A DNA stretch of 61,923 nucleotides from Verrucomicrobiaceae bacterium (GTDB lineage Bacteria; Verrucomicrobiota; Verrucomicrobiia; Chthoniobacterales; Chthoniobacteraceae). The stretch spans positions 1 to 61,923 of the forward strand of contig SXWH01000131.1 of NCBI GenBank assembly GCA_005791535.1, written 5' to 3'. This document shows positions 11,571-57,748 of the stretch, one piece after another (within the stretch, counting starts at the first letter, position 1; every line of letters starts with the position of its first letter). Below the pieces are notes generated by a model. That model saw nothing but the letters and a program-made list of their open reading frames with translations. It was not told where the DNA came from and ran no database searches. The position numbers and the translations under genes were made by a program.

Positions 11571-12533
11571 TCAGCGGTCCTTCTTTTTCTGCATCGCAGA
11601 CATCAGTCGGTCGTTGAACTCCACGGCACTATTGTATCCAAGGCTTTTGAGCTTCTGATCCATCGCTGCGACCTCCACCAACCGGGCCAGATCGCGCCCC
11701 GGCCGGACGGGAATCGTAACGTGCGGAATGTAAAACCCGAGAATCTCGTAATACTCCTGTTCCAAGCCCGTTCTATCGATGGATTCAATCTCCTGCCAAT
11801 CCTTTAGTGTGACAACCAGATCGAGCCTCTTTTCAATTCGCAGCGCGCTGACTCCGAAAACCGCCGTGACATTGATAACGCCCAGCCCGCGAATCTCCAT
11901 GTGCCCGCGGCCGAGTTCCGAAGCGGTGCCCATGAGTTCGCGCCCATCAAGAACGCGGAAATGCGTAATGTCGTCCGCGACCAGCGAGCAGCCACGCTCG
12001 ATCAAACCGAGGCCCACTTCGCTTTTGCCAATGCCGCTGCTTCCGCGAATGAGCACTCCCATTCCCTGAATATCGACCATGCTGCCGTACTCGCTCTTTC
12101 TCGGAGCGAAGTCGAACTCGAGCGCAAGCGTGGCCGCGTTGATGAACCGCATCGTGACCATCGGTGACAAAAACACCGCAATTTCGTGCATTCGCGCAGC
12201 CTCAAGGAGCGCCGGCGGCACCTGCAGTTCGCGCGCGACGACGATGCACGGAATCGGGTGCGAACAGAGTTCCGCCACGCGCCTGGATACCTCCTCCACA
12301 GTGATACTGTTGAGGTAGGCCAGCTCCGCAGAACCGAGAACCTGAATGCGCTTGTCGGCGAAATATGCGAAGAATCCGCACAGTGCGAGACCCGGCCGGT
12401 TGATCGTCGGCTCCAGAATCGTGCGCCCGAATCCGACACCCGTCTCGGTCAGCGGCTTCAACTGCAACGCCTCCGAGTGACGGGTAAAAAACTCCCCCAC
12501 GGTAATCGTTGGATGTTTTACAGGCGAAGTCAT
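11571..12533 (-). CDS. hprK: HPr kinase/phosphorylase
   Basis: 320 residues, normal length. HprK phosphorylates or dephosphorylates the regulatory serine of HPr in response to metabolites. The C-terminal kinase domain has Walker A GSSGIGKS at 164-171, the acidic pair in LVADD, and the HprK signature GHMEIRGLGVINV. The residue that is His in Firmicutes enzymes (H in HGxLVDxYG just before the P-loop) is Tyr here (EYGSMVDIQG), which may alter the kinase/phosphorylase balance. First gene of the minus-strand operon running to about 7.5 kb. Confidence 0.93.
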   Translation of the reverse strand: MTSPVKHPTITVGEFFTRHSEALQLKPLTETGVGFGRTILEPTINRPGLALCGFFAYFADKRIQVLGSAELAYLNSITVEEVSRRVAELCSHPIPCIVVARELQVPPALLEAARMHEIAVFLSPMVTMRFINAATLALEFDFAPRKSEYGSMVDIQGMGVLIRGSSGIGKSEVGLGLIERGCSLVADDITHFRVLDGRELMGTASELGRGHMEIRGLGVINVTAVFGVSALRIEKRLDLVVTLKDWQEIESIDRTGLEQEYYEILGFYIPHVTIPVRPGRDLARLVEVAAMDQKLKSLGYNSAVEFNDRLMSAMQKKKDR

Positions 12534-35621: not shown

Positions 35622-35761
35622 GGTGGAGCACGCTGCGTATTCCAACGCCGGGAAAATGCAAACACGGACGCGGACGGATAATTACTTTGTTACATTTTGA
35701 ATACACTCGCCGCTTTCCGGACCGCAAATTGGCTGTATGTTCCCGCGACTCACCCGTCCAC

Positions 35762-38700
35762 ATGCTACTCCGTTACCTCTCATTTCTAGCCGCCTGCTCG
35801 GTCGTCCACAGCCAGGTCGTCATCAATGAATTCGCGGCCGCGTCAAGCGATCGTCTCCTGACATGGACCGCGAATGGCACGCCGCGAATGGGCACGGGAA
35901 TCCCATGGTACGATTTGCAGTACTCCGATTCGTTCTGGCAGACGGGCGCATTGCCCGCGGGATACGGTTCGACCGTCTCAACGAATCTCCAGACGGCGAT
36001 GGTGAACAAGACGCAGACGTGCTACTTCCGGAAGACATTCACGGTCTCGCAGGCGCAGTCGGAGATGACGCAACCGCTTACGCTTCAGGTCGATTGCAAC
36101 GACGGATTCATCGCGTTCATCAACGGCGTGGAAGTCGCACGCGCAAACGCGGGTGCGCCCCAGCACTTCATGTATGCCGGGCAACCCGCGTACAACAACG
36201 TGACGGGCGCTGGCGTCGTGGAATTCACACTTCCCACCACGAACACACTGCTCGTTCCCGGAACAAACATCCTGTCGATTCAGGCGATGAACGCGCTGGT
36301 GAATCCCGCCGGAAACAACTTTGCGCCTTCGGCAAACTTCCGCCTAAACGCCGGGCTGAAGATTATTACTTCTTCGACGCCGGTCGAATTGACGAAGGCA
36401 TTCTACGACCACAATTCAGCAACAGGCGCCACCCGGACACGGCAGCGCACCGGGACAACGGATACAAATTCGAGCAGCGGCACGCCGGTCGCCGGCGGCT
36501 GGCTCGCATCGGCTACGGACCCGACCACCACCGGAACATGGACAAGCCTCAACATGGTCACCGGCGAAATCCCGGGCGCAGGCTTGGGCGGCTCGGGCGG
36601 CCTGCGCTATACGATATCGCAAACTGGGACAAACGGCACGGCCGCGTGGCTGCGTGCGCCTTCGGTAAATATGGTGAACGCTTGGGCGGTGAATTCGCTG
36701 AGCCTCGCTTCACTTGGACAAACCACGGTGAGTTTCCGCTACCGCACGACGGGAGATTTGCAATTCGGCCTGCGCATGGATCCCGCGATCGGACAGGAAG
36801 CAAACAGCGCGGACGGATTTCCCGTCATCGGCCTTCCGATTGGCGGTGCGGCGGATTACAACTGGGCAACCGCCGCGGGCGGCTATAGCGGAAAGTCCAT
36901 CTCCGCGGCCGGCGTACAAAGCTCGGTGCTGGGTGGGAGTATCAACATCGGCAACTACGAGGTGATGGTTAACAGCGGCGCAACCAATGGACTCATCACG
37001 ATGCTTGAGGACAATACTGCAGCCGCCGGCCCGGGCGGCAGCACCGGAATCATGACCGGGCGCTTCGAGACCTGGCCCACCGGCGTGACATCGATGAGTC
37101 TATCGGTAAGAAACATCGCGCAGACGGATTGGACAGCGGGCTCGATTTCCGCGGCTCAGTTTCAAAATGCGCGCCTCGCTTTCCGCTGGAAGATTCCGGT
37201 AGGCCGGCAACTCCATTTCGCACTCGAACCCAACACTGCCACGACCGCAACAGGCGCGGCGGACCGCGCTAACATTGGCGTGCTGAATGGTACAGGAAAC
37301 TGGGAGGCATTCACGGCAAGCCTTTCGGACCTAAACAACTCCGCCGCACTCCGGACGAAGCTGAATACGACGTTCAGCACAACGATGAAGCTGTCGTTGA
37401 TCTACACCGGCACGCCATTTGTCACCGGCGAGAAAGTGTATCTCGATGACGTCAGCCTTTACACGGAGATCGCCGGGCAAACGCTGGACGAAAACCTTCC
37501 AAACACCTTCTCGCTCGCATCCGGAGGAACCCTGACTCGCACCATTTCAGGTGCCGGCGCGGGAAGCAACGCGACCAGCGGAACGCTGCAGAACGTGCTC
37601 ACCGCTTTCAACGATCCCGGCGTCACGGGCATGGCATTCCGGATGGTCGAAGACTCAGCCGCAGGTTCCGACGGTACTCCCGGTTACCTCCGCTGCGAAG
37701 TGACCGACGCACCTGATATCGGCGCGCCGTGGGGCTTCAGTCTCACGGGTCCGACAATTCGCAACTGGACCAAGGGCGCCATCACCGTGGCGCAACTCAG
37801 CGAGGTCTCGCTCATGATGAGCACGAAGATTCCGAACGGCGTGACCGTCCAGCTCTACGGCGAGCGCATCGGCGGCTCGGTGAGCAATCGCGTGAACCTT
37901 GGAACACTGACTGGCAATGGCACATGGCAGAGCGTGACCAAGGAATTTGCCGGAGCCACGAACGTGGAAGCATTCCGGACGGATATGAACGCTGCGAACA
38001 GCACGCAGTTTCAACTGACCTTTGTGTTTCCATCCAATCCCTCAGTCGGCGAGCAAATGGCCATCGACGATATTCGCATCCTACCGTGGCGACTCTACAC
38101 GACGCCGCTTTCGGGCGGCACGGCGGCTAACCAGCAACGCTTCGTCGATTATCTCAATTCAAATTCGCTCATTTCATTCATCCCGACGTTCATCAAAAAC
38201 ACCGTTGCTCCCGCGACAGGCGGCACGTTGTCGATCGACAACTTCCAGGTCACCTACTTCGGCCCGGACCCGAATGCGTTGCAGCAGATCGTAGGGCTCG
38301 GTGAATCCGGCTGGAAATACTTTGTCGGTCTCGCGGAGCCGAGCGGCGGCTTGTTCGATCCGATCCTGCTAGCCGGCTTCCCGACACCACCCGGACAGGA
38401 GGACGAGTACGACAGCCCGCAAAATTTCCGCGACTGGGTCGAGCTCTACAATACCGGCGCCAGTCCGGTGAACATCGGCGGTTGGGGCCTCAGCGACGAG
38501 AAAGACACACCGATGAAATGGACGTTCCCGGCGAACACGACAATTCCGGCCGGCGGCTATCTGGTGGTCATGTGCGACGGTCGCGAGGAGGCGAACGGGT
38601 CATCCACATATCTGCACGCGGGCTTTTCGCTTTCCGCGAATGGCGAGGCGATCCGGCTCTATGATGCGGGCGGTGTTCTACAATCCGCTGTCACGAATGT

Positions 38701-41602
38701 TCCGACGCAGGATTCTTTTCACACCTGGGGACGGAATCCAAACGGCGATGGCTCCTACGGGTTCCTCGATACCGCGACGCCCGGAATCGCGAATATTGGC
38801 TCGTTCTACTCGGCACGGGTGAAGACTCCCGACTACTTCGCAGCCGACGGGATTACCCCGTTGCCGGGCGGATTTTACTCCGCCGCGCAAACACTGATTC
38901 TCCGCTCCGAGACATTCGATGCCACGATTCGCTATACACTCGATGGCACCGAACCAACGGAGGCGAACGGTACTGTGTATACCGGCCCTATTTCCGTTAC
39001 CGCGCCTGGCGATGGGAAATCCGCACGGAGCTTCCGTGCGAGAGCGTTCAAGGCCGGCCTCGTATCGTCGGACACGAAGGTTCACAGCTATCTCATCAGC
39101 GTGAATGCGAACCTCTCCGGCGTTCCCGCGTTACTGTTCACGGCCGATGCTGGACGAAACTTCTACGCGCCGCACGGCATCATGGCGATAAATGGCGGAA
39201 CCTATCCGGGTTCGTGGGCGCCAAACGGTCCGCAGAGTTACAACATCCCAATCAATCGCGGCGACGCTTACGAGCGGGTGACTTCCGCAGAGTTATATTA
39301 CCCCGATGGTCGCGACGGATGGAGGGACGACGTCGGCATCCGCGTTTCCTCCAGCCCCTACTCGCGCCCACTGCTCCGTCTTACCAATCGCGAAGCCTCT
39401 CCGTGGGTCAGCGATCACACGCAGAAGCCATCCTTCAACCTCAAGTGGCGCGACGATTACGGCTCCGCAGAAGTCACAGACCCGAGTCTCATTCCAGCCA
39501 ACGACACGAATACCTACAACGAACTCCGCATTCGCGCTGGAAAGAACGACATCCTCGATCCGTTCATCATCGACGAGGTGAGCCGCCGACTCTACCGCGA
39601 CATGGGCTGGTTCTCGCCCATCGGAACTATCGGGACCGTCTATTTCAACGGCTCATTCAAAGGGATGTACAACCCCACCGAGCGCGTCCGCTCGAAGATG
39701 TTCAAGCAACATTACCGGACCGACAATGACTTCGACGTGCGCTACATTGGCGAGCAGGTGGACGGCGACACCGTGTTCTGGAATGCGATGGTCGCGGCCC
39801 TGAATACACACAATACCAGCCCCACTGCGGCCAACTACGCAACAGCCCTCAATTACATCGATCCCGTAAACGTCGCCGACTACTTCCTCACAAACATTTA
39901 CATCAACACCGAGGATTGGCCCGGCAACAACTGGGCTGCCCAGCGTGAGCGCAGTCCATCCGGCCGGTATCGCTTGGTGATGTGGGACGCGGAAGGCGCG
40001 TTCGGGCGTTTTGGACAGGCGGTGAATTACAACACCATCGACAACAAATGCCTCGCAAACACAGAATGTTCGAATTGCTTCCGGCTGCTCTTTCCAAATC
40101 CGGAGTTCAAGCTCCTCGTCGCGGATCGGATCAACAAACACTTCTTCAACAACGGACTGCTGGACGACCGCGATACCGTAAACAGCCCGATTGCAAAGCA
40201 CATCAACTTCTTCAAAGCGAAGGTGGATCCGCTCATTCGCTTCGTCACCAACAATCCAAATGAGAGCGCCGACCTTGGCTGGTACACCAGCCATCAGAAT
40301 CCCACCACCGGACGCCGCGCTTATCTTTTCGGGACAGCCGCGGGAAGTTTCTCGAATAAAGGCCTGTGGCCCGCCACGCAACCCGCGACCTTCAGCCAGC
40401 ACGGCGGAATCGTCTCCGCGAACTACCCTCTGACCATCACGTCGCCAAGCGGCGGAACCGTTTATTTTACGCTCGATGGAAGTGACCCCCGCCTCACCGG
40501 CGGCGCGGTCTCACCGACGGCACAGATTTACACGAGCGCGATCAATTTGAACTCGCTGACGACCGTGAAAGTCCGCGTGCGCAGCGCGGGTGGAGAGTGG
40601 AGCGCACTCACCGAAGCGTATTTCCAACCCGGCGCTGTGCTCCCATCACCTTCGTCACTTGTCATTTCGGAAATCAACTATCACCCGCCGGCACCGACGG
40701 CCACGGAAACGGCCCTCGGGTTTACCGATGCAGACGACTTCGAATTCATCCGCCTGACAAACGTCAGCGGAAACCCGATTGACCTTCGCACAACCGAGTT
40801 CACCGGCGGCATCACGTTTATCTTCGGCACGGGCGACATTCTCGCGCTTCCCGCCGGCGGCCAGCTTCTGCTCGTAAAACGGAAGGCGGCGTTTGAGGCG
40901 AGATACGGGACTACGTTCAGCTCGCTCATCGCGGGCGAGTATGGCGGCGGGCTTAGCAATAGCGGCGAGTCGTTGAGACTCGATATTGTCGCTCCATCCG
41001 TCGTCAACATCGCTTTCTTCTCCTACAAGGACGACGGCGATCCGAGCTGGCCGGCAACTCCAGACGGCTACGGGCCCTCGCTCGTGCTCTTGAATCCGGA
41101 GTTCGCGCCAAATCCGGCCCTCGGGATGAACTGGGCCGCGAGCGCACAGCCTGGAGGACTGCCGGGCGGCGTAGTCCGGCTTTTGAACTACACGTCCTGG
41201 AAGAACCTCTCTTTTGATCCCGCCGACGCAGCGGACAACTCAATTTCGGGTCTCACGGCGGATCCGGATCTCGACGGCATCCCCAATCTCATCGAATACG
41301 GGCTCGGTGGAAATCCGCTCTTTAACGACCGTGCGTTACTGCTGCTTCAGCCAACCATTTCAAACAGCGGCGGCACAGACTACCTCACCTACCAATACCG
41401 AACGAATGCCGGCGCGAGCGATGCCACGATCACACCGCAGGTCTCGAGCAACCTCACCAATTGGTTCAGCGGCGCGGGAAATGTAATCACGCTCGGCGGA
41501 CCCTCACTCAGGAACGATGGCATCAACATCTTCCTCGTTCGAGACACCGTGCCGGCCGCAAATGGAAACCGCTACATCCGGCTCCAGGTCGTGGCGCCGT
41601 AA
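35762..41602 (+). CDS. giant secreted CotH-kinase / lamin-tail-domain protein
   Basis: 1946 residues from ATG 35762, with a signal peptide (LLRYLSFLAACSVVHS). N-terminal half (about 30-850) consists of jelly-roll-like modules, two of them clearly similar (near residues 500-570 and 710-780: GNWEAFTASLSDL versus GTWQSVTKEFAG, each ending in DDVSLY or DDIRIL). Then a lamin-tail domain (~860-1020), a chitobiase C-terminal-like domain (~1036-1110), a CotH-like region (~1150-1510; YRLVMWDAEGAFG), a second chitobiase-like domain (~1550-1625) and a second lamin-tail domain (~1630-1775). Probably surface exposed; function unknown. Confidence 0.85.
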   Translation: MLLRYLSFLAACSVVHSQVVINEFAAASSDRLLTWTANGTPRMGTGIPWYDLQYSDSFWQTGALPAGYGSTVSTNLQTAMVNKTQTCYFRKTFTVSQAQSEMTQPLTLQVDCNDGFIAFINGVEVARANAGAPQHFMYAGQPAYNNVTGAGVVEFTLPTTNTLLVPGTNILSIQAMNALVNPAGNNFAPSANFRLNAGLKIITSSTPVELTKAFYDHNSATGATRTRQRTGTTDTNSSSGTPVAGGWLASATDPTTTGTWTSLNMVTGEIPGAGLGGSGGLRYTISQTGTNGTAAWLRAPSVNMVNAWAVNSLSLASLGQTTVSFRYRTTGDLQFGLRMDPAIGQEANSADGFPVIGLPIGGAADYNWATAAGGYSGKSISAAGVQSSVLGGSINIGNYEVMVNSGATNGLITMLEDNTAAAGPGGSTGIMTGRFETWPTGVTSMSLSVRNIAQTDWTAGSISAAQFQNARLAFRWKIPVGRQLHFALEPNTATTATGAADRANIGVLNGTGNWEAFTASLSDLNNSAALRTKLNTTFSTTMKLSLIYTGTPFVTGEKVYLDDVSLYTEIAGQTLDENLPNTFSLASGGTLTRTISGAGAGSNATSGTLQNVLTAFNDPGVTGMAFRMVEDSAAGSDGTPGYLRCEVTDAPDIGAPWGFSLTGPTIRNWTKGAITVAQLSEVSLMMSTKIPNGVTVQLYGERIGGSVSNRVNLGTLTGNGTWQSVTKEFAGATNVEAFRTDMNAANSTQFQLTFVFPSNPSVGEQMAIDDIRILPWRLYTTPLSGGTAANQQRFVDYLNSNSLISFIPTFIKNTVAPATGGTLSIDNFQVTYFGPDPNALQQIVGLGESGWKYFVGLAEPSGGLFDPILLAGFPTPPGQEDEYDSPQNFRDWVELYNTGASPVNIGGWGLSDEKDTPMKWTFPANTTIPAGGYLVVMCDGREEANGSSTYLHAGFSLSANGEAIRLYDAGGVLQSAVTNVPTQDSFHTWGRNPNGDGSYGFLDTATPGIANIGSFYSARVKTPDYFAADGITPLPGGFYSAAQTLILRSETFDATIRYTLDGTEPTEANGTVYTGPISVTAPGDGKSARSFRARAFKAGLVSSDTKVHSYLISVNANLSGVPALLFTADAGRNFYAPHGIMAINGGTYPGSWAPNGPQSYNIPINRGDAYERVTSAELYYPDGRDGWRDDVGIRVSSSPYSRPLLRLTNREASPWVSDHTQKPSFNLKWRDDYGSAEVTDPSLIPANDTNTYNELRIRAGKNDILDPFIIDEVSRRLYRDMGWFSPIGTIGTVYFNGSFKGMYNPTERVRSKMFKQHYRTDNDFDVRYIGEQVDGDTVFWNAMVAALNTHNTSPTAANYATALNYIDPVNVADYFLTNIYINTEDWPGNNWAAQRERSPSGRYRLVMWDAEGAFGRFGQAVNYNTIDNKCLANTECSNCFRLLFPNPEFKLLVADRINKHFFNNGLLDDRDTVNSPIAKHINFFKAKVDPLIRFVTNNPNESADLGWYTSHQNPTTGRRAYLFGTAAGSFSNKGLWPATQPATFSQHGGIVSANYPLTITSPSGGTVYFTLDGSDPRLTGGAVSPTAQIYTSAINLNSLTTVKVRVRSAGGEWSALTEAYFQPGAVLPSPSSLVISEINYHPPAPTATETALGFTDADDFEFIRLTNVSGNPIDLRTTEFTGGITFIFGTGDILALPAGGQLLLVKRKAAFEARYGTTFSSLIAGEYGGGLSNSGESLRLDIVAPSVVNIAFFSYKDDGDPSWPATPDGYGPSLVLLNPEFAPNPALGMNWAASAQPGGLPGGVVRLLNYTSWKNLSFDPADAADNSISGLTADPDLDGIPNLIEYGLGGNPLFNDRALLLLQPTISNSGGTDYLTYQYRTNAGASDATITPQVSSNLTNWFSGAGNVITLGGPSLRNDGINIFLVRDTVPAANGNRYIRLQVVAP

Positions 41603-44245: not shown

Positions 44246-44893
44246 CTATCCGCGTAAAGCTCGGATAGCCGAAGCCATGTCCGCCGCTCCAAATACGCTG
44301 CTGCCTGCAACGAGCGTATCAGCGCCTGCGTCACGGCTCTTTGCACCGGTTACAGCGTTGATTCCGCCATCGACTTCGATGCGGTAGGCGAGATTTCGCG
44401 CGGCACGAATGTCGCGCGCCATGCTCACCTTCTCCATTTGCGATTCCATGAATGACTGGCCGCCAAATCCCGGCTCCACCGTCATCACGAGAACCAAATC
44501 CACATCCGCGAGGAACGGCTCGATCGCGGAAAACGGTGTTCCCGGTTTGAGCGAGATGCCCGCGCCTACGCCCGCCGCACGGATGTCGCGGAGCGTGGCT
44601 GCCACATCGCATTCAGCTTCCACATGAATCGTGATGTTGCGCGAAAGCTTCGCAAAGCGCGACCAGTAATGGTCGGGACGGGAAATCATGAGGTGCGAAT
44701 CGAGCGGCTTTGTTGCGACCTTCGCCACGCTCTCGCAGAATGCAGGGCCAAAGCTGATGTTGTCCACCAAGCGACCATCCATGACGTCGAGATGCAGCCA
44801 GTCGGCTCCTGCGGCTTCCACAGCGCGAATTTGATCATGAAGCCGGCCCCAGTCGGCTGCGAGAACGGATGGTGCGATAACGATGGGATGCAT
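44246..44893 (-). CDS. rpe: ribulose-phosphate 3-epimerase
   Basis: 215 residues, normal length. Interconverts ribulose 5-phosphate and xylulose 5-phosphate in the pentose-phosphate pathway. Signatures: IAPSVLAADWGRL, DWLHLDVMDGRLVDNISFGP with catalytic Asp and metal ligands, HLMISRPDHYW, VMTVEPGFGGQSFM, VDGGINAVTG. It starts 15 bp after the ABC permease stop, so it is probably transcribed with the two permeases. Confidence 0.95.
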   Translation of the reverse strand: MHPIVIAPSVLAADWGRLHDQIRAVEAAGADWLHLDVMDGRLVDNISFGPAFCESVAKVATKPLDSHLMISRPDHYWSRFAKLSRNITIHVEAECDVAATLRDIRAAGVGAGISLKPGTPFSAIEPFLADVDLVLVMTVEPGFGGQSFMESQMEKVSMARDIRAARNLAYRIEVDGGINAVTGAKSRDAGADTLVAGSSVFGAADMASAIRALRG

Positions 44894-44908
44894 ATGCGAA
44901 AGGATGGT

Positions 44909-45814
44909 TTAACGCCGCGCCCGCGGATCAAGCGCATCGCGCAGCGCGTCGCCTAAAAAGTTGAGCGAAAGGAGCGTGAGCGACATCGCGGCCGCTGGAA
45001 ATACAAGCAGCCACCAGTAGCTGCGGACCGGATTGATGGCGTTCTTTCCATCGCTCAAAAGACTGCCCCAACTCGCCTGCGGGTCGCTGATTCCCAGACC
45101 GAGGAAACTCAGGAAAGATTCATCCAGAATCACCGCGGGAATCGTGAGCGTGAGATAAACGACGACCACGCCGATGAGATTTGGCAGCAAATGCCGCAAG
45201 AGAATCCGCACGTGGCTCTGTCCCAAAGCGCGCGCAGCAAGCACGAATTGCTGCTCTTTCAATGCAAGCACCTGACCGCGCACGATGCGCGCCATCGACA
45301 GCCACTCGATGAGTCCGAGGCTGAGAATAATCAGCACCACCTTCGCGTAGCCCTTCATTTCCGGCCAGACTTGATGAAGGAGCGCTTCCATTCGCGGCGC
45401 AAAAGTGAAGATCGCCACGATGATGATAATCAATCGGGGCACGCTGTGCAGCACTTCCACAAGGCGCATCATGATGTTGTCCGTCCGTCCGCCCACGTAG
45501 CCCGAAACCAGGCCGTAGGCTGTGCCGACGATAAAACTGACGAGCGCTCCGCAGAGTCCCACAATCAGCGAAACCCGCGCGCCCTGCAGCACCCGCGAAA
45601 AGACATCGCGCCCATTCATGTCGGTGCCGAACCAGTTTGCGGCGGTCGGTGCCGACAGCTTCACCGGCGATGTAGCCTCGGGCGCGTAACGAAAAATCCA
45701 CGGCCCTGCGACGGCCATGAACACGATGAACCCGAGAACCGCGAGCGCCACGATGGCTTTCGGGTTCTTCATCAATCGCGCAAACGCGCCGGGATGGGTT
45801 ACGGCTTTACTCAT
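44909..45814 (-). CDS. peptide-type ABC transporter permease (OppC/DppC-like)
   Basis: 301 residues with six membrane helices. OppC-type start (ATSPVKLSAPTAANWFGTDMNGRDVFSRVLQGARVSL) and the EAA loop AARALGQSHVRILLRHLLPNLIG. Overlaps the upstream permease by 8 bp. No periplasmic binding protein and no ATPase gene is found next to the pair. Confidence 0.9.
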   Translation of the reverse strand: MSKAVTHPGAFARLMKNPKAIVALAVLGFIVFMAVAGPWIFRYAPEATSPVKLSAPTAANWFGTDMNGRDVFSRVLQGARVSLIVGLCGALVSFIVGTAYGLVSGYVGGRTDNIMMRLVEVLHSVPRLIIIIVAIFTFAPRMEALLHQVWPEMKGYAKVVLIILSLGLIEWLSMARIVRGQVLALKEQQFVLAARALGQSHVRILLRHLLPNLIGVVVVYLTLTIPAVILDESFLSFLGLGISDPQASWGSLLSDGKNAINPVRSYWWLLVFPAAAMSLTLLSLNFLGDALRDALDPRARR

Positions 45815-46760
45815 CGAGTTTGATCCGCGGATCGAGGAACTTGTACGCCACGTCCACGACGAGATTCAGGAGCACGAGCAGTGTGCAGTAAATGACAACG
45901 GTCCCGCAGCACAGGAATACATCGCGATTGAGCACGGAATTCACAAAGAATCCGCCCATTCCGGGCAGATTGAAAACCGACTCAATCACCAGTGAACCGG
46001 TGACGAGATTCGCCGCGAGTGGTCCGATGAAACTTACAACTGGAAGGATGCCGACCTTCAACGCGTGCCGGTATATGACCGAGCGCTCGGCAAGCCCCTT
46101 CGCCCGCGCAGTGCGGACAAAATCCTGCCCGAGCACTTCAAGCATGCTCGTGCGCGTGAGCCGGCTGATGTACGCGATAAATGGCCCTGCAAGAGTCAGT
46201 GCAGGCAGGAGCAGACTAGACGCACCATTCCACCCGCCGACCGGCAGCCAGCCGAGCCACAGTGCGAAGACGAGGATGAGCGTCGGCCCCACAACAAACG
46301 TCGGAAGCGAAACAGCGAACAGCGCGAAGAACATTGTGCCCGCATCCATGAAGCTGTCCTTTTTTAAAGCCGCCATGCTTCCGAGGAAAATGCCGATGGT
46401 CGTCGCAAGAAGCAGCGCGACCGCTCCGATGGTGGCTGAAACCGGGACGGTCTGGTCGATCAGTTCGCGAACATCGCGGTCCTTGTATTTCAGACACGAT
46501 TGAAAGTCCCACTGGAGGATGCCGGAATACTCGCCCTCGTTATTGCGCATGATTCCGAGGTAGCGCGCGAGCTGCGACGCGATGCTGCCGTCGAGGTTGT
46601 GTTTCCGCTCCATGGCCGCGAACTGTTCTTTGCTGATGGCCTTCTCGCCCTGTGCAAACGGATTTCCCGGCGCAAGCCGGAGCAGGCAGAAAGTCGCGGA
46701 GACTGCGATAAGCAGCACCACAAAAAGCGAAATTATGCGCCTGACTATGAACGTGAACAT
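45807..46760 (-). CDS. peptide-type ABC transporter permease (OppB/DppB-like)
   Basis: 317 residues, six membrane helices. N-terminal RRIISLFVVLLIAVSATFCLLRLAPGNPF is typical of OppB, as is the EAA loop RTARAKGLAERSVIYRHALK. It forms the heteromeric channel with the downstream OppC-like protein. Likely substrate: oligopeptides or related solutes. Confidence 0.9.
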   Translation of the reverse strand: MFTFIVRRIISLFVVLLIAVSATFCLLRLAPGNPFAQGEKAISKEQFAAMERKHNLDGSIASQLARYLGIMRNNEGEYSGILQWDFQSCLKYKDRDVRELIDQTVPVSATIGAVALLLATTIGIFLGSMAALKKDSFMDAGTMFFALFAVSLPTFVVGPTLILVFALWLGWLPVGGWNGASSLLLPALTLAGPFIAYISRLTRTSMLEVLGQDFVRTARAKGLAERSVIYRHALKVGILPVVSFIGPLAANLVTGSLVIESVFNLPGMGGFFVNSVLNRDVFLCCGTVVIYCTLLVLLNLVVDVAYKFLDPRIKLDE

Positions 46761-55552: not shown

Positions 55553-57748
55553 TTAAAAAGGCAGCGGGAACTTCTTCGTGAAGCCCTTCACTTCATCGCG
55601 AATTTTTGCGAGTTCAGCGGGATTCTCACGAGCTTCGAGGGCGCGGTGGATGAAGTCGGCGATGTCCATCATCTCTTCTTCCTTCATGCCCCGTGTCGTC
55701 ACCGCCGGTGTGCCGACGCGGATGCCGCCGCCCTTGCTAATCGGTTCCGTATCAAACGGGATGCCGTTCTTGGTCACCGTGATTCCGGCGTGGTCGAGTG
55801 TCGTGCTCGCGAGCGCGCCGTTCAGGCCTTTCGGACGCAGGTCGACCAGCATGAGGTGATTATCCGTGCCGCCGCTGACAATCCGGTAACCGTGGTGCGC
55901 AAGGCGCGCGCTGAGTGCTTTAGCATTCGAAACGATTTGCTGCGTGTAGGTCTTGAATGAAGGTTGCAGAGCCTCGTGGAAGCAGACGGCTTTCGCCGCG
56001 ATGACGTGCTCCAGCGGACCGCCCTGAATGCCAGGAAACACCTGACCGTCGATTGCCTTTGCATACTTCTCCTTGCAAATAATCAGGCCGCCACGCGGTC
56101 CCCGCAGGCTCTTGTGTGTGGTCGTTGTCGTAAAATCCGCAAGCGCACACGGGTTTGGATGCACGCCGCCCGCGACGAGGCCAGCGATGTGAGCCATATC
56201 CACAAACAGCAATGCACCCACCTTGTCCGCGATTGCGCGCATGCGCTCGAAATCGATGATTCGCGGATAAGCACTTGCGCCCGCGGTGATCATTTTCGGC
56301 TGAACTTCGATCGCCATCTTTTCGAGCGCATCGTAATCAATCCGCTCGTCCTTCTCGCTGACGCCGTAGTGCGTCACGGTGTAGAACCGTCCGCTGAAAT
56401 TCGCTTTGTGCCCGTGCGTGAGGTGGCCGCCATGCGCGAGGTTCATGGTCAGAATGCGGTCACCCGGCTGAAGCACGGAAAAATAAACCGCCGTGTTCGC
56501 CTGCGATCCGGAATGCGGTTGAACATTCACGTGTTCTGCTCCTGGAAACAGCTCCTTCGCGCGGTCGATCGCGAGTTGCTCGGTAACGTCCACATTCTCG
56601 CAACCGCCGTACCAGCGCTTACCGGGATAACCCTCGGCATATTTATTGGTGAGGCAGGAGCCCTGCGCTTCCATCACCGCGCGGCTCGTGAAGTTCTCCG
56701 AGGCAATCAATTCGATGCCTTCGAACTGCCGCTTGTGCTCTTCCTGAATCGAGTGAAACACCGCGCTGTCCACCTCGGCCAGCGAGCGCCCACCAGCACA
56801 GGAGCCGCCCGCCTCAATCTTCTGCACGCGCGCCTCGTGGCGTCCGCCTTCAAACTCGGTCGTGAGGAATGCCTCCACGATCGCCGCCGCCTGATTCGGC
56901 GCGACATTTGACGCGCCCATGCAAAGCACGTTGGCGTTATTGTGACGGCGGGTCGTTGCGGCATCGGAGGCATTGGTCACGAGCGCCGCCCGGATTCCTG
57001 CGTGGCGGTTCGCCGCGATGCTCATCCCGATGCCGGTCTTGCAGAACAGAACGCCAAAATCCGCTTCGCCCGCGAGCACCTGCTTGCACACCAGTCCGGC
57101 GTAATCCGGATAATCGACGGAATCCGCGGAGTTAGTTCCGAGGTCGTGCACGACAAGTCCCTTCGCTTTGAGAGCGTCGGCGACTGCGCGTTTCAGTTCC
57201 ACGCCGCCGTGGTCGGCGCCAAGCGCGATGCGGGTGGTCTGCTGCGTTCCGGATGGGGCCGTGGTTGTGGTCGTTTGGGTCATTTCGGTGGTGTCGATGT
57301 GCTTGATGATGCTTGGGATTGCTTTGGAAAGATGATCACGTGTGGCGATGTATGCGTGGATGCCCATTCCGATCGGGTCCGGCACTTCCGGACGCGCAGC
57401 CAGCGAAGGCTCGAATTCACAGGCGAGCCACGCCTTTTGCTCCGCCTCGGGGAAGAACGTGAGGATCGCATCGAGATGCGAGCGCGTCATGCCGTAGATG
57501 TGCGTGGCCCAGCGAACGAGCTCGTCCGTGAGCGGCTGTGAGCGGATGTCGCGAATGTCGACGCCGATTTGCCTGCAAGCTTCTACGCCGTTCTCACTCG
57601 GGCGTTGTCCGTAGCCCGTCGCCACACCGGCGCTGGCCACCTCCACATCCTTCCGGGCGCGCACGGCATGCCGGAAAAGCCCTTCGGCGATCGGGCTCCG
57701 GCAGATGTTTCCAGTGCAGACAAATAGGACGCGTTTTATTGTGGCCAC
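55553..57748 (-). CDS. glyA: three-domain fusion: LMW phosphatase / RpiB / serine hydroxymethyltransferase
   Basis: 731 residues from GTG 57748. Domain 1 (1-152): low-molecular-weight phosphotyrosine-phosphatase with Cys11-x5-Arg17 (VCTGNICRS) and the acid loop VPDPIGMG (about 122-129). A Thr-rich linker (156-172) leads to domain 2 (173-312): ribose-5-phosphate isomerase B, with GADHGG, Cys236 in FCKTGIGMS and [12 protein letters not shown]. Domain 3 (321-731): serine hydroxymethyltransferase with the PLP Lys546 in [12 protein letters not shown]. No stop codon separates them. An ATG at 57283 could give a second RpiB-GlyA product. Confidence 0.9.

Follow-up and report, generated by a model that had tools for sequence, protein, structure and literature searches.

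A predicted three-domain protein of Verrucomicrobiota joining a YwlE-like phosphatase, RpiB and serine hydroxymethyltransferase, and a probable partnership of its phosphatase with McsB

The joining of a low-molecular-weight (LMW) phosphatase, the ribose 5-phosphate (R5P) isomerase RpiB and serine hydroxymethyltransferase (SHMT) in one protein is not new, having been in print since 2008. Hou et al. reported the three-domain protein Minf_1669 of Methylacidiphilum infernorum and called it unusual; the accessible parts of that paper link the serine and pentose phosphate pathways and are silent on arginine phosphorylation (PMC2474590). We found no other description of the triple protein in the open-licence literature searched. 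From species, length and domains, we take the database protein P0123 (736 aa), which is contained in the ORF of locus L104 (genome G118), to be Minf_1669. For the phosphatase domain, the closest described systems are the arginine phosphatases YwlE and PtpB, in which Thr at position PX5 of the P-loop gives selectivity for arginine and Ile gives selectivity for tyrosine (PMC8001253). The Methylacidiphilum McsB kinase (Minf_0242, named together with the Clp gene Minf_0241) is reported as upregulated on formic acid (PMC8024496).

One open frame with three predicted catalytic domains

The window, a stretch of 61,923 nucleotides from a Verrucomicrobiaceae bacterium (assembly GCA_005791535.1, contig SXWH01000131.1), contains a 731-residue minus-strand ORF that runs from a GTG to a TAA without an internal stop (Table 1). 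The open frame extends upstream of this GTG, to 832 residues; we prefer the GTG as the start because close homologues are mostly about 730 residues long. The original prediction, made from the sequence alone, was of a single frame with phosphatase, RpiB and SHMT domains, which is the order of Minf_1669, and the profile searches bear this out. All three domains pass their Pfam cut-offs: LMWPc (PF01451) at residues 7–144 with 83.1 bits against 23.2, LacAB_rpiB (PF02502) at residues 174–311 with 183 bits against 25, and SHMT (PF00464) at residues 323–700 with 544 bits against 27. The RpiB domain also passes the NCBIfam equivalog TIGR01120 (164.9 against 138.65) and the SHMT domain the NCBIfam subfamily PRK00011 (614.7 against 335).

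Table 1. Features of the 61,923-nucleotide window that are discussed in the text.
Feature	Position in window	Strand	Basis
rpe	44249–44893	-	Pfam
Three-domain protein ORF, 731 residues	55556–57748; stop codon 55553–55555	-	GTG start at 57748; homologues
LMW phosphatase domain, YwlE-like; Cys11, Ile15, Arg17, Asp124	57317–57730	-	PF01451; best solved match 4pic YwlE
Thr-rich linker, residues 157–169, pLDDT < 50; preceding ATG without Shine-Dalgarno core	57242–57280	-	
RpiB domain; Asp179-His180, Cys236, His269, Arg303, Arg307 present	56816–57229	-	PF02502
Gly-rich linker RpiB/SHMT, residues 312–322	56783–56815	-	
SHMT domain (Pfam match), PLP lysine Lys546	55649–56782	-	PF00464

The active-site residues Cys11/Arg17, Cys236 and Lys546 sit where they had been placed, and the predicted Thr-rich and Gly-rich linkers are present in the translation. 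In the phosphatase domain, Cys11, Arg17 and Ser18 belong to a CX5R(S/T) P-loop and Asp124-Pro125 supplies the acid. The RpiB domain has the Asp-His pair, Cys236, His269-Asn270, Arg303 and Arg307, residues to which we assign catalytic roles, and Lys546 is presumably the pyridoxal phosphate (PLP) lysine of SHMT; the PLP lysine is kept in all 302 SHMT sequences compared. Judged by sequence, one chain with three intact-looking active sites is thus supported. An AlphaFold model of the 731-residue chain (mean pLDDT 80, pTM 0.52) folds the phosphatase and RpiB domains with confidence, with low confidence in the linker between them (residues 157–169) and also at the start of SHMT (residues 313–385). 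The model gives nothing firm on how SHMT is placed relative to the other domains.

It had been foreseen that a sequencing error might hide a stop codon, or that all close relatives might encode the orthologues as separate genes. Neither is the case. Eight of the nine other genomes of the same genus show the frame free of stops at 77–89% identity to the window (the G003 copy starts at a contig end); in the remaining genome, G006, the contig stops after residue 300. The stop-free frame in the eight readable genomes rules out a chance open frame, a frameshift, a missed stop or an assembly error. In addition, a protein search with residues 1–330 returned 3438 proteins at E < 0.001; among the best 120 of these, which include the window's own cluster, 110 have lengths of 700–800 residues, and the full set of three Pfam domains is found in 119, of which one is named Chthoniobacter flavus.

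We consider it highly improbable that the fusion is only apparent, with three enzymes made separately from one frame through internal starts or cleavage. The linker of the window does contain an in-frame ATG, and 64 of 103 triple proteins have a Met within the linker or beside it. Against this, no signal for internal initiation was found at the window's linker ATG, which has no Shine-Dalgarno core (four or more of AGGAGG), and the eight same-genus copies have no internal stop. Such a core occurs in 8 of the 103 triples compared with 74 of 115 genomes with an RpiB-SHMT frame, where it precedes a Met near the rpiB start, counts that used different windows and serve as a guide only. The argument is limited in that starts can work without a Shine-Dalgarno core and cleavage is invisible in DNA.

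Two functionally related genes, rpe and purU, had also been placed in the window. The first was confirmed (Table 1); for the second, no formyltransferase was found by Pfam (E 1e-6) among the 47 largest weakly overlapping ORFs of at least 150 aa. The rpe gene lies directly downstream of two oligopeptide-type permease genes (44249–46760, minus strand). Elsewhere in the window are a 1971-residue ORF with lamin-tail, chitobiase C-terminal and CotH domains (35687–41599, plus strand) and an HPr serine kinase-type gene (11574–12533, minus strand).

Domain layouts at the SHMT locus across Verrucomicrobiota

The suggestion that the same architecture be sought in Verrucomicrobiota was followed with a census of 269 genomes by domain layout, using profiles built from triples; the window's own taxonomic order is oversampled. 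The triple fusion is present in 103 of the 269, namely 97 of 171 genomes of the window's class and 6 of 98 of other classes, and at least one triple occurs in 35 of the 51 families of the window's class. Unclassified are 5 of 103 other-class genomes (G240, G271 and G273 have no SHMT match; G258 and G277 are cut), and five loci with no full SHMT were dropped (L003, L036, L037, L196, L197). Four genomes entered the counts just as their sequences read: stops interrupt RpiB in G024, the frame of G101 breaks after phosphatase-RpiB and before SHMT, and the contigs of G087 and G099 end short of the phosphatase.

Apart from the 97 triples, the window's class has 25 genomes with phosphatase-SHMT and no RpiB, 23 with RpiB-SHMT (five of these with an upstream phosphatase frame) and 26 with SHMT alone (18 of these with a phosphatase upstream); RpiB and SHMT are therefore fused in 120 of the 171. 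In the other classes, RpiB and SHMT are in frame in all 98 genomes read, and the phosphatase is a separate frame just upstream in 55, fused in 6 and not at the locus in 37. Where a separate phosphatase frame precedes RpiB-SHMT (60 genomes), the open frames overlap in 29 and the ends lie within 50 bases in 43; one of the 60, G024, is rather a broken triple. At its locus (L209, G024:C53:176026-180819), from the same family as the window, the stretch coding for RpiB is scattered over several frames, through decay or assembly error.

Because RpiB and SHMT are joined in 98 of 98 other-class genomes and the phosphatase lies upstream in 55, the fusion seems to be an ancient gene cluster that is now translated as a single chain. 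The simplest reading of these layouts is that an old ptp-rpiB-glyA cluster joined first at rpiB-glyA and then at ptp. The joining of ptp probably happened more than once, since the SHMT tree places triples from families f55, f61 and f64 in the midst of relatives that lack the fusion. All three genes lie apart, in the same order, in two genomes (loci L186 and L192). A clade with split genes (f21, f24, f42, f46, f48, f51) is nested among triples in the best careful tree, and later fission there is likely but not shown; an AU test failed to reject the alternative to this nesting (p = 0.207). We take the gene order in Bacillus subtilis to be ywlE-rpiB-glyA, and a search of the open-licence literature for ywlE, ywlF and glyA together found nothing. 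The ptp and rpiB profiles had no match in the DNA examined around glyA in 23 named SHMT-only loci.

Two further observations concern individual loci. In G041 and G050, which are strongly reduced genomes of 0.9 Mb on a single contig, phosphatase and SHMT form one frame (L187, L193), RpiB is separate and McsB is kept. At equivalent places in G005 and G004, a short frame downstream of the fusion (L010:3413-3700, L011:7597-7827) repeats the last 47 residues of SHMT at 66–70% identity, resembling a partial duplication.

The phosphatase domain and its relation to McsB

The original prediction had called the N-terminal domain phosphotyrosine-type, and this description is weakened. Among solved structures the best match is 4pic, 'Arginine phosphatase Ywle' (81.4 bits), with other YwlE chains at 63.6–68.8 bits and the best phosphotyrosine LMW-PTP at 52.2 bits; the domain is thus closer to YwlE than to tyrosine-specific LMW-PTPs. 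Its orthologues also track McsB (see below). The P-loop reads CTGNxCRSP, and all 206 relatives compared retain the catalytic Cys, Arg and Asp, including those with RpiB degenerate or gone. What stands of the earlier description is position PX5, which is Ile15 and points to tyrosine. We do not claim membership of the YwlE family for the domain, because it has Ile at the position where YwlE owes its arginine selectivity to Thr.

This residue is the main ground for supposing that the domain is a tyrosine or small-molecule phosphatase, out of the arginine business, and that the fusion is an old cluster in one frame. Ile occupies PX5 in the window and in all eight readable same-genus genomes, and Ile or Val occupies it in 96 of 122 fused phosphatases of the class compared with 9 of 55 separate ones of other classes. 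Furthermore, the T11I substitution raises PtpB activity on pNPP (PMC8001253). However, the 27 genomes of the window's own family vary at PX5 (17 with Ile, 6 with Thr, 4 with Ser), and therefore the residue marks no separate kind there. The nearest solved relative is YwlE, and the motif after the acid Asp is DPIG, unlike the DPYY of a second, classical LMW phosphatase on another contig (C219) of the same assembly, which could share the work. These points, with the McsB evidence that follows, lead us to regard a phosphatase unconnected with arginine as unlikely and to prefer one that, by homology and co-occurrence, likely acts like an arginine phosphatase. Separately, G155 carries another phosphatase-like frame (L078:3690-4130) downstream of its triple; Asp replaces the catalytic Cys in the P-loop of this frame, and the product is likely dead.

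The window's assembly has a 373-residue mcsB ORF (L326) with an INEEDH stretch, so McsB is present in the same organism. This ORF passes the NCBIfam 'protein arginine kinase' equivalog NF002194 (427 bits against 385), and directly upstream of it is an McsA-like ORF with 145 bits, under the curated cut-off of 210. The McsB family (PF00217) was matched in 139 of 141 class genomes and 151 of 155 phylum genomes. It was also matched in none of 14 control genomes, Bacillus subtilis included, for which we have no explanation at hand, as we would expect the B. subtilis McsB to match. Scores fall in two groups, above 172 bits or below 148 bits, and 'weak' McsB is defined here by these profile scores alone.

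When the phosphatase was counted at the SHMT locus only (leaving out 6 genomes with too little upstream DNA), 2 of 172 genomes with the phosphatase had weak McsB or none, compared with 25 of 57 without it; this association was not significant on independent pairs. We then used a profile made from these phosphatases (A2; match, E < 1e-30) in 155 phylum genomes. A phosphatase was found elsewhere in 28 of 32 genomes with strong McsB and no local phosphatase, including nine Akkermansia-like genomes of family f15; none of the 25 weak-McsB genomes has the phosphatase. Overall, 121 genomes have both proteins, 27 have neither intact, and 2 + 5 are mismatched (Fisher 7e-23, kinship ignored). The phosphatase is weak and McsB strong in G220, G251, G261, G269 and G273 (the G273 match being partial), and the reverse holds in G271 and G278. 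Four of the 155 have no McsB match; the phosphatase is missing in two of them and present in these last two. The class sample adds one triple genome, G132, with no McsB match. Across eight independent pairs (starred branches; 8 of the 155 genomes, with no usable SHMT, left out), a mean of 5.5 differed the same way, 0 the opposite way and 2.5 not at all (median p = 0.031, range 0.031–0.125).

On the basis of the 121/2/5/27 table and the independent pairs, the phosphatase and McsB are likely partners. This tie across the phylum, together with mcsA-mcsB in the window's assembly, further argues against a tyrosine or small-molecule phosphatase. The clearest co-loss is in family f57, where the kept phosphatases all have Thr at PX5 (5 of 5), and therefore it speaks less directly for the Ile type. 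The weak McsB-family matches are in families f15, f57, f59, f66, f68, f69 and f72, some of them in frames of 360–420 codons; the weak matches suggest a diverged, possibly non-kinase relative of McsB in genomes where the YwlE-like phosphatase is missing.

RpiB decay and comparison with described systems

The only SHMT and the only RpiB found in the window's assembly are the domains of the fusion, and RpiA was not found, statements that are provisional for an assembly of 294 contigs that is 86.6% complete. As no other RpiB was found and this one is intact, it is likely the cell's R5P isomerase. We sorted 134 class genomes (7 of 141 left out) by the state of RpiB in the SHMT frame: 78 have an intact-looking domain, 19 have one in which catalytic residues are missing (G141 being classed as degenerate solely for Cys to Gly), and 37 have none there. 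A further R5P isomerase gene, either another RpiB or RpiA, is present in 25 of 78 intact genomes, 19 of 19 degenerate ones and 36 of 37 without RpiB in the SHMT frame; one PF02502 match per genome was taken as the in-frame domain itself, and for the 37 the count includes RpiB genes next to SHMT, the exception being G120. The raw association of decay with a second isomerase (19/19 versus 25/78, Fisher 2e-8) was not significant on independent pairs (4 pairs, of which 2–3 usually had the same sign). The pattern suggests that RpiB decays where it is spare.

These counts bear on the purpose of the fusion, which Hou et al. proposed for Minf_1669 to be the coupling of the serine and pentose phosphate pathways (PMC2474590); the original prediction likewise put phosphatase, R5P supply and folate metabolism on one polypeptide. 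Coupling or channelling would fit the fusion of RpiB and SHMT in 98/98 other-class and 120/171 same-class genomes, the complete set of catalytic residues in the window and the presence of rpe within it. However, the degeneration of RpiB in 19 and its absence from the SHMT frame in 37 of 134 genomes weaken the equation of fusion with coupled pathways, the genes lie apart in some lineages, and model confidence is low in the linker between phosphatase and RpiB. The argument fails for its own protein, because the RpiB of Minf_1669 lacks the catalytic Cys and His (66 bits on the RpiB profile compared with 244 for the window) and the M. infernorum genome has a separate, full-score RpiB in a 156-codon frame. 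We know of no intermediate shared between the RpiB and SHMT reactions. Coupling of these pathways as the function of the fusion is therefore improbable, and the proposed joining of three pathways is unsupported.

The explanation that we favour, and consider reasonably probable, is one chain of a phosphatase that likely removes protein arginine phosphates, an RpiB and an SHMT (all predicted), likely tethered but acting separately. The N-terminal domain would be the eraser answering the McsB kinase, RpiB would serve as the cell's R5P isomerase and SHMT as the glycine/serine and one-carbon enzyme. Neighbouring genes of the old cluster would have joined, rpiB-glyA first and ptp next, and the fusion could then be kept, cut back or re-split at little cost. 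A bolder possibility, which we hold to be doubtful, is that the eraser of the arginine-phosphate degradation mark has been built into the sole SHMT and sole R5P isomerase, with an abundant metabolic enzyme carrying it, so that the McsB-Clp quality-control switch would go up and down in step with one-carbon/pentose supply; McsB might, in addition, have SHMT or RpiB among its substrates. If true, protein-arginine dephosphorylation would be wired into the central metabolism of a Gram-negative phylum.

As far as the literature search reaches, three things are new: that all genomes read from other classes have RpiB fused to SHMT, that RpiB decays (in the published example too) and that the phosphatase is linked to McsB. 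If these readings are true, arginine phosphorylation with writer and eraser would be a general trait of Verrucomicrobiota, with an eraser that moves between a free gene and an SHMT fusion; the 2008 argument from domain content would fail for its own example, where RpiB looks dead; and the locus would offer a natural series (separate, two-domain, three-domain, dead, deleted) in which the formation and decay of enzyme fusions could be studied. All three implications could be tested in cultured species, e.g., Chthoniobacter flavus and Akkermansia.

Compared with described systems, the window's domain shares with YwlE/PtpB the P-loop, the acid Asp-Pro and the presence of McsB in the genome, and differs in its PX5 residue and in being fused to two metabolic enzymes. 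Its second best solved relative, the 180-residue 4egs chain (80.5 bits), was deposited as 'Ribose 5-phosphate isomerase RpiB' and aligns as phosphatase only; the deposit name suggests a phosphatase-RpiB join or neighbourhood elsewhere. Stand-alone RpiB (TIGR01120) and SHMT (PRK00011) proteins share the profile cut-offs and catalytic residues, whereas here they are parts of one chain. Minf_1669 has the same three domains in the same order and at the same length, and the window differs from it in an RpiB that is intact and the only one found.
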